Shown: in pieces, positions 5,694 through 60,511 of the stretch
How positions within the stretch are numbered: position 1 is the stretch's first letter
Layout of the letters: each line of letters opens with the position of its first letter
NCBI GenBank assembly: GCA_903825285.1
Contig: CAIJZY010000036.1
Span: 1 to 64,000 of the forward strand
DNA length: 64,000 nucleotides
Origin: an uncultured Opitutia bacterium
GTDB lineage: Bacteria; Verrucomicrobiota; Verrucomicrobiia; Opitutales; Opitutaceae
Reading direction: 5' to 3'
Made by a program: the position numbers and the translations under genes
The notes under the pieces: model-generated
What the model was told of the DNA's origin: nothing
Database searches by the model: none
The model's input: only the letters and a program-made list of their open reading frames with translations

Positions 5694-5787
5694 GGTGTCA
5701 GGTTTATGGTGTAAGTTGTAAGCCCATCCCTCCCTCGCCCCGGCCCACCGCTTACCTCCTAAACCTTACACCTTACCCCTTACACCC
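5693..5787. repeat. Heptad repeat element, inverted arms (AGGTGTA type), between mreC and mreD
   Basis: Left arm 5693-5720 overlaps the last base of the mreC stop and has 7-mers AGGTGTC, AGGTTTA and relatives. Right arm 5749-5787 has five or more exact 7-mers of type nCCTTAC. It ends 9 bases before the mreD ATG. This is the second operon-internal element of the mre cluster, and it uses a different word from the first. Confidence 0.88.
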
Positions 5788-8316: not shown

Positions 8317-8465
8317 TTCTCACCACGAAGGGCATGAAGCCAAGCCCGGTTGGACTTCGCGCGCTTCGCGGCCTTGGCGGTAAGTCACACTCCGCCGAAC
8401 AGGTTTACGGCCAAGCACGCAGGCCAGAGAATCCGGCTTCGTGCGCTTCGCGTCCTTCGTGGTGC
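8317..8465. repeat. Nonad (9-bp period) repeat element
   Basis: The convergent gap between PBP2 and the transglutaminase gene holds CACGAAG-type units at 8317-8339, complementary units (CTTCGCG, CCTTGGCGG) at 8355-8382, and GGCTTCGTG, CGCTTCGCG, TCCTTCGTG in exact 9-bp steps at 8435-8461. It is the same class as 21138-21302 and 42139-42315, with one inner arm decayed. Confidence 0.75.
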
Positions 8466-13937: not shown

Positions 13938-13966
13938 CATCACGAAGACCACGAAGCGCCCGAAGG
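13938..13966. repeat. Solitary nonad repeat arm (CACGAAGnn)
   Basis: Three 9-bp units close to CACGAAGAC lie just upstream of the dehydrogenase start, with no partner arm seen. It appears to be a half or decayed copy of the nonad class. Confidence 0.6.
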
Positions 13967-13987
13967 CAATTCTCTCCGGGTCGAATT

Positions 13988-14065
13988 GTAGGGCGGGGTC
14001 GCCGACCCCGCCTTGCTCCGCTCTTAAAGTTGGCCAATACGGCGGGGTCAGCGACCCCGCCCTAC
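13988..14065. repeat. Pair of GC-rich palindromes, inverted
   Basis: Two 25-bp copies face each other: 13988-14012 begins GTAGGGCGGGGTC and 14041-14065 is its near-exact reverse complement. Each copy is itself palindromic (GGCGGGGTC against GACCCCGCC). A second pair lies at 63715-63826. It could act as a bidirectional transcription or mRNA-end element between two minus-strand genes. Confidence 0.85.
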
Positions 14066-14076
14066 ACCGATCCGGG

Positions 14077-14778: not shown

Positions 14779-14901
14779 ATTTACGATTTACGAGTTACGA
14801 TTTACGATTGTCGGACGCAAGCGACAGCGTATCTATTTTTTCACCGACGATCGCCTCGCACGATCCAATCGCAAATCGTACATCGTAAATCGAAAATCTT
14901 C
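14779..14901. repeat. Heptad repeat element, inverted arms (ATTTACG type)
   Basis: Left arm 14779-14806 is four exact 7-mers (ATTTACG, AGTTACG). Right arm 14867-14901 is five exact 7-mers (AATCGCA, AATCGTA and variants), running up to the ATG of the acetylxylan esterase with no space for a Shine-Dalgarno. It is the divergent region between two genes, and the word matches 453-578. Confidence 0.9.
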
Positions 14902-21102: not shown

Positions 21103-21137
21103 CCGGCTGGGCACCCAACTCCCGCCAGCGGTCTGGA

Positions 21138-21302
21138 TTCACCACAAAGATCACGAAGCGCACGAAGTGCACTGCCGAACCTCCGCGGCCTTGGCGGTCT
21201 TCGCGGTTATCCAAGATGGTAGGCCGACCCTTTTCACCGCAAAGCACGCCAAGATCGCGAAGATCCGGTTCGCCTGGGCTTCGTGATCTTTGTGGTGAAT
21301 CC
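21138..21302. repeat. Four-arm nonad repeat element
   Basis: The 313-bp gap after birA holds four arms in 9-bp steps. A: CACAAAGAT/CACGAAGCG at 21143-21169. B': CCTTGGCGG/TCTTCGCGG at 21180-21206. B: CGCAAAGCA/CGCGAAGAT near 21238-21264. A': CTTCGTGATCTTTGTGGT at 21279-21296. A pairs with A' and B with B', giving a nested double hairpin. The rest of the gap shows no gene. Confidence 0.88.
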
Positions 21303-23293: not shown

Positions 23294-23395
23294 AGTTGAA
23301 CAATGAAAGTCCCCGGTTGAAAGCCGCCGCCCATCGGGCGCGTGCGGCTTCACCCCGCCCGGCTTTCAGCCTTCAACGTTCAACCTTCAACTAAC
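23294..23395. repeat. Heptad repeat element, inverted arms (AGTTGAA type)
   Basis: Left arm 23294-23324 has 7-mers AGTTGAA, GGTTGAA and relatives. Right arm 23361-23395 is five exact 7-mers (GGCTTTC, AACGTTC and variants). It fills the permease-gldG gap in the operon. The same word is at 24906-24999 and 60425-60511. Confidence 0.9.
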
Positions 23396-29859: not shown

Positions 29860-29879
29860 GCGGGGCGATGGGCTTCATC

Positions 29880-29962
29880 GCGGAAGCGCGGAGGAGCGGA
29901 GGCGCGGAGGCGCGGAATCAGAATAGAATTTCTCCGCGCTTCCGCCCCTCCGCGCTTCCGCG
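29880..29962. repeat. Octad (8-bp period) repeat element, inverted arms
   Basis: Left arm 29880-29919 is five exact 8-mers of type GCGGAGGC. Right arm 29933-29962 is their complement (GCTTCCGC, CCCTCCGC). It fills the convergent gap between the AsmA-like and sulfatase-like genes. A single arm of the same word is at 57102-57133. Confidence 0.88.
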
Positions 29963-29977
29963 ATCAACCCGTACTCC

Positions 29978-31278: not shown

Positions 31279-31423
31279 TTCACCGCTAAGCGCGCGAAGA
31301 TCGCAAAGCTTTCCGATCCTTCGCGCGCTTCGCGGCCTTTGCGGTGAACCATCCCAAATCCAGCCCGCGGTCAGCTTCGGCGGGGATTTCATTTCGTGTG
31401 ATTCGTGTTTTTCGTGGTAAATC
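31279..31423. repeat. Nonad repeat element, three arms
   Basis: Arm B 31281-31309 (CGCTAAGCG, CGCGAAGAT), arm B' 31318-31348 (TTCGCGCGC, TTTGCGGTG) and an A'-type arm 31391-31421 (ATTCGTGTT, TTTCGTGGT) run in 9-bp steps. An A arm is not seen. It occupies the divergent gap between the sulfatase-like and dienelactone hydrolase genes. Confidence 0.82.
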
Positions 31424-42138: not shown

Positions 42139-42315
42139 ATTTACCACGAAGGACACGACGCTCACGAAGAGCTGCGGCTTAGGCTGCACTTCGCGTCCTT
42201 GGCGATCTTAGCGGTGGTAATGCATTGATTTCCGATCCATTCCACCGCTAAGGCCGCGAAGAGCGCGAAGCCGAGGCAGCCCATGCTTCGTGAGCTTCGT
42301 GCCCTTCGTGGTAAG
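42139..42315. repeat. Four-arm nonad repeat element
   Basis: The gap between the phosphatase and parC genes repeats the architecture seen after birA. A (CACGAAGGA, CACGAAGAG) at 42144-42170. B' (CTTCGCG...CTTAGCGGTGG) about 42188-42217. B (CCACCGCTAAGG...GCGCGAAG) about 42241-42270. A' (CTTCGTGAG, CCTTCGTGG) about 42286-42312. A pairs with A' and B with B'. The rest of the gap shows nothing. Confidence 0.88.
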
Positions 42316-42344
42316 AAAATCAGCCCGCCCGCGCAGTGGTGGGC

Positions 42345-59261: not shown

Positions 59262-59297
59262 CCGCTTCGCGGGCTTCGCGCCCTTGGCGGTGAAATC
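59262..59297. repeat. Nonad repeat arm (CTTCGCG/CCTTGGCGG type)
   Basis: Three 9-bp steps (CGCTTCGCG, GGCTTCGCG, CCCTTGGCG) plus the GTGAAATC end are seen, equivalent to the B' arm of the four-arm elements. It touches the stop codon of the DTW gene. No partner is visible. Confidence 0.7.
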
Positions 59298-60424: not shown

Positions 60425-60511
60425 CAGTTGAAAGCGGCTGGTTGAAAGTTGAAAGATACCCGGGCCTGCAGGGTCCGAGGCTTTCAACGCTCAACTTTCA
60501 ACGATCAACTC
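60425..60511. repeat. Heptad repeat element, inverted arms (AAGTTGA type)
   Basis: Left arm 60425-60459 (CAGTTGA, TGGTTGA, AAGTTGA). Right arm 60477-60511 (TCAACGC, TCAACTT, TCAACGA, TCAACTC). Both are exact 7-bp steps. The right arm supplies the stop codon of the zinc-ribbon gene (60505-60507). Confidence 0.9.

Follow-up and report, generated by a model that had tools for sequence, protein, structure and literature searches.

MITEs are gene-less derivatives of transposons, the STRRs of cyanobacteria are heptanucleotide repeats, and the IVS found in 23S rRNA is bounded by a hairpin. REP/BIME repeats, according to PMC3733652, are short dispersed hairpins, often paired, that are linked to the gene of a small enzyme, also exist as gene-plus-repeat units, and carry a GTAG or CGTC tag at the foot of the hairpin. 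The TAACTGA repeats of Beggiatoaceae are heptanucleotide repeats as well, and MacGregor (2015) proposed that the mobile element might be a repeat-binding protein (PMC4679880). We found no repeat association of the GxxExxY family (TIGR04256/PF13366) in the literature searched, including the accessible part of PMC8934634. Among open-licence PMC papers, whose silence is not proof of absence, there was no account tying the repeats described here to GxxExxY genes or heptads to S23 genes.

We analyzed a stretch of 64,000 nucleotides (the window) from the 3.74-Mb genome of an uncultured Opitutia bacterium (G000). The first-pass annotation had placed a four-arm element of order A B' B A' at 21138-21302 and again at 42139-42315, and direct reading of the arms bears out both the coordinates and the order (Table 1). 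A full element is ∼165 bp long and consists of four 28-nt arms, with CACGAAG units in A and CGCNAAG units in B, single-letter departures, 9-bp steps, and free 2-nt linkers. Element 1 (21140-21297) is flanked by a BirA-like gene and by an ABC-transporter ATPase gene, and its A/A' side forms an inverted repeat with 96% identity (21135-21162/21275-21302). Element 2 (42142-42313) has a parC-like gene on one side and an acid-phosphatase gene on the other, with arms A and A' in a 93% inverted repeat (42141-42169/42286-42314). In both cases, the flanking genes are codirectional.

The partial versions annotated at 8317, 13938, 31279, and 59262 do contain repeats, but they are not alike, being a decayed four-arm copy, a lone A arm, a B-B' hairpin accompanied by a CACGAAA-type A' arm, and a lone B' arm, respectively. 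The decayed copy, whose A and degenerate B were identified by eye (B by eye only), has a penicillin-binding-protein gene on one side and, convergent with it, a transglutaminase gene on the other. Directly past the lone A arm, a separate 26-nt inverted repeat (TGTAGGGCGGGGTC.., 96%) occupies 13987-14066; it may represent a different repeat family that interrupted the element. A further gene-less hairpin (29871-29970) has words of the class seen, by eye, in the arms of GxxExxY genes at three other loci (L305, L311, and L316). A PF13366 profile search found no GxxExxY gene within the window itself, and no Rfam family matched the window at gathering score.

Table 1. Periodic-arm repeats located in the window (positions counted from its first letter)
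Feature	Positions	Strand	Remarks
Full element 1, arm A	21140..21167	+	CACAAAG-AT-CACGAAG-CG-CACGAAG; read directly and by arm scan
Full element 1, arm B'	21181..21208	-	Arm reading and scan
Full element 1, arm B	21235..21262	+	Arm reading and scan
Full element 1, arm A'	21270..21297	-	Only outer two units good
Full element 2, arm A	42142..42169	+	Read directly and by arm scan
Full element 2, arm B'	42189..42216	-	Arm reading and scan
Full element 2, arm B	42243..42270	+	Arm reading and scan
Full element 2, arm A'	42286..42313	-	Arm reading and scan
Decayed four-arm copy	8320..8464	.	A 8320-8339 (two units), B' 8355-8382, degenerate B ∼8406-8435, A' 8437-8464
Lone arm A	13938..13965	+	Arm reading and scan
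Simple B-B' hairpin	31281..31346	.	B 31281-31308, B' 31319-31346; divergent genes either side
Lone A' arm, related CACGAAA class	31392..31419	-	Arm reading and scan
Lone arm B'	59265..59292	-	Arm reading and scan
Gene-less hairpin, other class	29871..29970	.	CGCGGAA/CGCGGAG words, 8-bp steps; class assigned by eye

The annotation had taken the repeats for a true family, and the genome agrees: with up to three mismatches, the A-arm pattern occurs at 150 places in G000 (74 forward and 76 reverse) and the reversed control pattern at none. A looser arm scan of 306 kb of stretches from the same genome, which had no control of its own and whose lowest-scoring arms are partly noise, returned 114 arm clusters, of which 20 have the precise order A B' B A'; our conclusions rest on the A-arm counts and on the 21 full elements of G000, all with orientation + - + -. 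The arm order is thus shared between copies, as had been claimed. Two other places in G000 show the reverse arm order (A' B B' A at C48:78940-79109 and A' A at C46:80775-80944), and the order A B B' A' occurs as well in the relative G009 (L136). A stricter two-unit pattern gave 82 matches in G000 and, in 11 other genomes of the genus, from 0 (G001, G006, and G007) to 56 (G009). CAC-type arms reach across phyla: they were present in 23 of 34 genomes of organisms with GxxExxY loci, chosen by hand from those of the 80 loci introduced below, at 407 places against one control match.

Most core letters of the 21 full copies carry 1.0 to 2.0 bits and the linkers 0.1 to 0.9, with core values lower at position 1 of the 28-mer and at position 4 of the B words, which is free. 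The foot of the hairpin is of the TTCACC/GGTGAA type (flanks of the 21 copies, by eye). In the outer A-A' stem, 91.3% of cells are paired and 29 cells changed on both sides compared to 11.0 in shuffles; its covariation score of 0.162 (0.088 in shuffles) was reached by none of 500 shuffles. The A and A' linkers also match at 55 of 84 positions, with 33.8 expected (p 2e-4). The inner B'-B stem, with 82.1% of cells paired, is able to form and showed no covariation in these same copies (308 of 500 shuffles as high), which makes it an internal negative control for relatedness of the copies. The nested double hairpin predicted in the annotation, with compensatory changes in both A/A' and B/B', is therefore upheld for the outer pair and fails for the inner one. 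The B' and B linkers are complementary at 16 of 84 positions (25.8 expected), which is below chance, as would be expected if perfect inner palindromes were disfavored. Linkers of A/B' and B/A' match at chance level, and the side-by-side pairing A-B'/B-A' gave no covariation (168 of 500 shuffles as high). Since the consensus outer arms are CAC type and the inner arms CGC type, we infer that nested pairing is favored over side-by-side pairing.

We searched the genus for three gene families, RAYT (PF01797), S23/four-helix bundle (PF05635), and GxxExxY/PDDEXK_3 (PF13366). The gene that lies between arms belongs to the GxxExxY family: the GxxExxY genes of the genus stand mostly between mirror-image arms with an 8- to 10-nt step, and the word class was readable by eye for 36 of 40. 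Mobilization of REP/BIME-type repeats in trans by a Y1 (RAYT) transposase would account for dispersed, paired palindromes, and Y1_Tnp matches occur in 9 of the 12 genomes of the genus, but none of the 19 PF01797 loci has an adjoining arm (two weak score-18 arms, at L039 and L055, are ∼750 nt off) and none of the 38 PF01797 flanks is periodic. Nor is there a consistent GTAG/CGTC tag, since of the 21 copies one has GTAG within 12 nt to its left and another has CGTC within 12 nt to its right. With PF01797 genes in the genus devoid of adjoining arms or periodic flanks, a RAYT origin was rejected, and we consider it very improbable.

For the association of arms with GxxExxY genes across phyla, we took the best 80 loci, with one genome scanned per species, and used 78, leaving out two with a short flank. 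An exact-period test is weak for this family (5 of 40 flanks at lag 8 or 9 in the genus; across phyla, at lags 8, 9, and 10, respectively, 7, 7, and 3 of 79 upstream flanks, 7, 8, and 6 of 76 downstream flanks, and 2, 2, and 2 of 281 controls). This weakness comes from the variable letters of words and linkers, and a word-chain scan (C R C N R A G, steps of 8 to 10, bonus for a preceding AC) took the place of the test. The rule was set after reading GxxExxY flanks and was applied unchanged to the control windows and the S23 flanks. An arm with a score of at least 17 was detected in at least one flank at 68 of 78 testable loci and in both flanks at 55, in many phyla, and at 10 of the 78 it went undetected. 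The same rule found arms in 9 of 562 windows located 0.7 to 1.1 kb away in the same loci and in 1 of 120 S23 flank-strand windows. The mirror orientation that was expected is shown by arms in 50 of 79 flanks upstream and 55 of 78 downstream; opposite-orientation arms, in 13 of 79 and 21 of 78, respectively, indicate that some loci hold extra or reversed arms and depart from the arm-gene-arm arrangement.

The two arms of a locus mirror each other closely. Over the 35 loci with both arms scoring at least 18 in gene orientation, upstream and downstream arms had an identical spacing vector in 32 (7.1 expected; no more than 16 in any of 10,000 shuffles), variable core letters agreed at 270 of 315 positions (145.7 expected; shuffle maximum, 188), and linker letters agreed at 61 of 112 (45.4 expected; shuffle maximum, 63). 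The whole gene-bearing element at these loci has a median length of 467 bp (range, 423 to 554), and the stop codon lies a median of 7 nt from the arm (range, -55 to 87). The locus of Stieleria tagensis (L214) has the CACGAAG word in a 9-bp step, identical to that of the window. We conclude that the window feature is very probably a gene-less form of GxxExxY elements. The first-pass annotation gave the repeats no function, and the link to GxxExxY nuclease genes comes from the present analysis.

The words fall into classes, nine in the genus (GAG, AAG, GAAT, TAAT, GAAA, CGGAA, AGGAA, GGAT, and GCGCAG). They were assigned by eye and not blinded, to 36 of 40 genes (L089, L308, L315, and L323 have no clear class), and these 36 labels change 9 times on the GxxExxY tree, compared to a mean of 25.4 and a minimum of 19 in 2000 shuffles. 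With one row per orthologous site, 26 labels again change 9 times (shuffle mean, 18.7; minimum, 13). Related proteins at different sites thus carry the same word class. As far as sequence comparison goes, this shows gene and arms to be one evolving unit; physical linkage or co-inheritance could produce the match between class and tree, so it does not imply that the protein reads the words. The conservation of the unit sequence stated in the annotation applies within the class of this genome, and the units differ between nuclease subfamilies. Across phyla, the test is weak, and neither core class (19 changes versus 20.5; 80 of 400 shuffles as low) nor spacing (17 versus 19.6; 25 of 400 as low) matched the protein tree significantly.

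Genus genomes in which an AAG-class gene is present have 82, 56, 25, 18, and 0 two-unit matches, and those in which none was found have 15, 11, 10, 8, 1, 0, and 0, with 40 of the 47 GxxExxY gene matches in the genus looked at. Given that coverage, G002, G003, G004, and G010 hold 8 to 15 matches with no AAG-class gene found, and G001 has the gene and 0 matches. A link between presence of the gene and the number of gene-less copies in the genus is only suggestive.

Asp67, Glu77, and Lys79 are invariant in the 62 hand-chosen sequences that we aligned out of 80 GxxExxY proteins. An AlphaFold2 model of the protein (pLDDT, 96.3) had its best fold match in Cas4 SSO0001 (4ic1; Z, 9.7; rmsd, 4.4 over 100 residues). 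The archaeal Holliday-junction resolvase Hjc (1gef) followed at a Z of 6.7, where values under 8 can mean a common arrangement only. The top Foldseek matches in the PDB were Cas4 SSO0001 (E, 1.3e-3) and lambda-type exonucleases, none at an E of ≤0.001, and a sequence search of the PDB up to an E of 1 returned no solved relative. The D...E-x-K active site and the predicted fold together place the protein in the PD-(D/E)XK group (Cas4/lambda-exonuclease/Hjc) as a putative nuclease. A small nuclease with a Cas4-like fold and repeats directly upstream might instead belong to a defense or addiction module, its arms serving as self-marks or antitoxin-like RNA. We give this reading hardly any credence, as mirror-image arms flank the gene on either side, G000 has far more arms than genes (150 matches to 4 genes), and none of 50,697 phage records matched the L214 protein. 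With 8 of 72,556 plasmid records matching this one query, the element seems not to travel on the usual carriers.

The pairing of the arms could also matter in RNA. An arm stem in intercistronic or untranslated mRNA might be excised by RNase III, as in the 23S IVS, with insertions tolerated for that reason and the nuclease being a passenger or acting separately. The fold is very stable with RNA parameters (z of -12.75 for 42139-42316; with DNA parameters, z of -9.33 for 21136-21302; one element and one strand each), both full window copies lie between codirectional genes, and RNase III excises the Coxiella 23S IVS with its S23 open reading frame (ORF), as reported in PMC4990558. However, the repeats at 8320-8464 and 31281-31346 lie between convergent and divergent genes, respectively, so the direction of transcription is not constant, and the arms of gene-bearing loci show no coding-strand G.U bias: of 101 mismatches in 848 positions, 28 are sense wobble, 28 antisense wobble, and 45 others. 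The absent bias gives no sign of selection on one RNA strand and favors a structure at the DNA level, and we regard the RNA explanation as unlikely.

Species differ in whether an orthologous site holds an element. The annotation had proposed looking for empty sites, and of the 11 genomes with the BirA-ABC locus, G000 and G008 carry the element and the other 9 lack it (by eye). Both arms of the G000 copy have CACAAAG as word 1 and AT as linker 1, and both arms of the G008 copy have CACGAAG and AA in these places (by eye). The parC-phosphatase site is filled in G000 and G008 and empty in G003, and seven other loci have another neighbor or a contig end. For word 2, the G000 copy there has CACGAAG/CACGACG and the G008 copy CACCAAG in each arm; the remaining linkers of the G008 copy do not match one another. 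By eye, then, three changes on both arms separate the orthologous copies of G000 and G008 at the two sites. The sequence evidence as a whole shows that arms and gene go together across phyla and that elements are present or absent at orthologous sites. Hairpins useful to the host, such as terminators, mRNA stabilizers, or nucleoid/gyrase sites, spread and kept by selection with nuclease genes being incidental, would agree with the placement of the window copies between genes and with the contrast between conserved words and free linkers. This explanation is quite improbable in our judgment, given the patchy distribution within one genus (0 to 82 two-unit matches, as above), the mostly empty BirA sites, and the fact that the arms bracket specifically one of the three gene families tested.

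For the gene-less GxxExxY elements that we favor, the gap between parE and parC offers a view of their origin. It holds a gene-bearing element in G009, G011, and G004, and a close relative of its gene, with the same words, is found in G006 (L082). Gene-less hairpins with the same or similar words occupy the gap in G001, G002, and G005, and in G004 such a hairpin stands in tandem with the gene-bearing element; G010 has an other-word hairpin and G000 and G008 have heptad-like ones (all by eye). With gene-bearing, gene-less, other-word, and heptad hairpins differing by species, the gap (L248-L257) is an apparent hot spot for both this system and the S23 system described below. The loops of the gene-less hairpins in G001, G005, and G004 retain ∼35 nt from the beginning of the coding sequence, immediately inward of the upstream arm, with alignment scores to L078 of 47, 39, and 40 (shuffle maxima, 26, 22, and 25, respectively). 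The remnant in G002 is marginal (29; shuffle maximum, 26), and the G010 loop has none (12; shuffle maximum, 22). No gene remnant was found in the gene-less copies of G000 itself, where only two intact genes matched in the 306 kb. Gene-less forms thus appear, at least sometimes, to be deletion derivatives of a gene-bearing element, as supported for the parE-parC hairpins of the relatives. The 21 full copies show no target duplication (mean longest direct repeat, 1.38, compared to 1.62 in shuffles) and hence no transposition footprint.

S23 genes have arms of their own. In the genus, they lie between arms with a 7-nt step (by eye), and the best period of their flanks was 7 in 22 of 40, 9 in 2, and none in 16. 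S23 occurs in 220 of 288 genomes of the window's phylum, where the best-scoring 30 loci showed lag 7 upstream in 12 and downstream in 19 (controls, 5 of 120). In the order of Nostoc sp. 106C, whose genome holds L196, 23 of 30 genomes have S23, and the best-scoring 24 loci showed lag 7 upstream in 11 and downstream in 13 (controls, 0 of 86), lag 8 in 3 and 3, and lag 9 in 1 and 2. Words in these flanks include GTCATTG and ACTCAGC, which look like cyanobacterial STRR heptads. Tandem heptads resembling the classic short tandemly repeated repetitive sequences adjoin many S23 genes of this order (L280-L303), and these genes may thereby give cyanobacterial STRRs a source.

Within the window, hairpins with a 7-bp step are located at 984-1070, 5708-5786, 14779-14898, 23304-23382, and 60427-60509, each with a different word, and look like the arms of S23/four-helix-bundle genes of the genus, the phylum, and the Nostoc relatives. 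One S23 protein (L066) also matches the Avd model of diversity-generating retroelements with an E of 1.2e-4, which is below the model cut-off. A broader proposal can be drawn up, which we find possible and on balance somewhat doubtful: the unrelated GxxExxY and S23 families would each define minimal selfish elements, the protein family would set the step (8 to 10 nt versus 7 nt, sometimes 8 or 9), a multimer would read the row of words as a ruler, and the free letters would be set only by pairing between the arms. Gene-less arms would then be the source of unexplained heptanucleotide and CACGAAG/CACAGAG intergenic repeats across bacteria, including the cyanobacterial heptads.

For the GxxExxY elements, we propose the following mechanism. 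The complete element is an arm, a GxxExxY gene, and a mirror-image arm, ∼0.47 kb in all, with each arm made of three short words (CRCNNAG or a class variant) in steps of 8 to 10 nt. Several GxxExxY subunits may bind side by side along the repeated words, and the arms would pair in DNA, as a hairpin when single stranded or as a cruciform. The PD-(D/E)XK nuclease would cut the paired arms at their foot, and cutting would lead to loss of the element from a site or to its placement into new intergenic sites without target duplication. Gene-less copies would use the GxxExxY enzyme in trans. We advance the predicted cutting and moving by the nuclease tentatively, at slightly under an even chance. 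The proposal as one whole, a gene-less relative of a nuclease-encoding element together with this mechanism, seems to us moderately likely.

Comparison with described systems places these elements in a familiar kind. Like REPtrons (REP/BIME with RAYT; PMC3733652), they are short dispersed hairpins, often paired, linked to the gene of a small enzyme and found also as gene-plus-repeat units; unlike them, they have a PD-(D/E)XK instead of an HUH/Y1 enzyme and no consistent GTAG/CGTC tag, and their arms consist of words at regular intervals, the class of which goes, within the genus, with the subfamily of the enzyme. They share with MITEs terminal inverted arms, high copy number, and, in some relatives, an apparent internal deletion of the gene, whereas target duplication is missing, no transposase was found, and the arms are periodic rather than one fixed terminal sequence. 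Since the element fails the defining tests of REP/RAYT and MITE, we file it under neither, though it works like such a pair. The 23S rRNA IVS with an S23 ORF is similarly a small ORF on a short selfish element, and its S23 family is the one bounded here by arms with a 7-bp step (PMC4990558). The present elements differ from it in lying outside rRNA, in having 8- to 10-nt steps, a nuclease instead of S23, and many gene-less copies; the window copies stand between protein genes, and the window's contig has no S23 gene. Heptanucleotide repeats (STRRs and, from PMC4679880, TAACTGA) are likewise tandem short words, intergenic and patchy between strains, but their step is 7 bp and is tied here to S23 genes, not GxxExxY genes.

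If a periodic-arm element is defined by inverted arms of three words in 8- to 10-nt steps, with or without a GxxExxY gene between them, the window elements are gene-less members with 9-nt steps. Unexplained intergenic repeats thereby gain an owner and a testable enzyme, and heptanucleotide repeats, in cyanobacteria and elsewhere, would find their origin in the S23 parallel with its 7-bp arms. Should the nuclease act on the arms, the element would be a minimal, nuclease-only mobile hairpin, unlike the transposons compared here and spread over many phyla. A small enzyme with dispersed hairpins is a known kind of system; this pairing of GxxExxY with periodic arms appears to be new.
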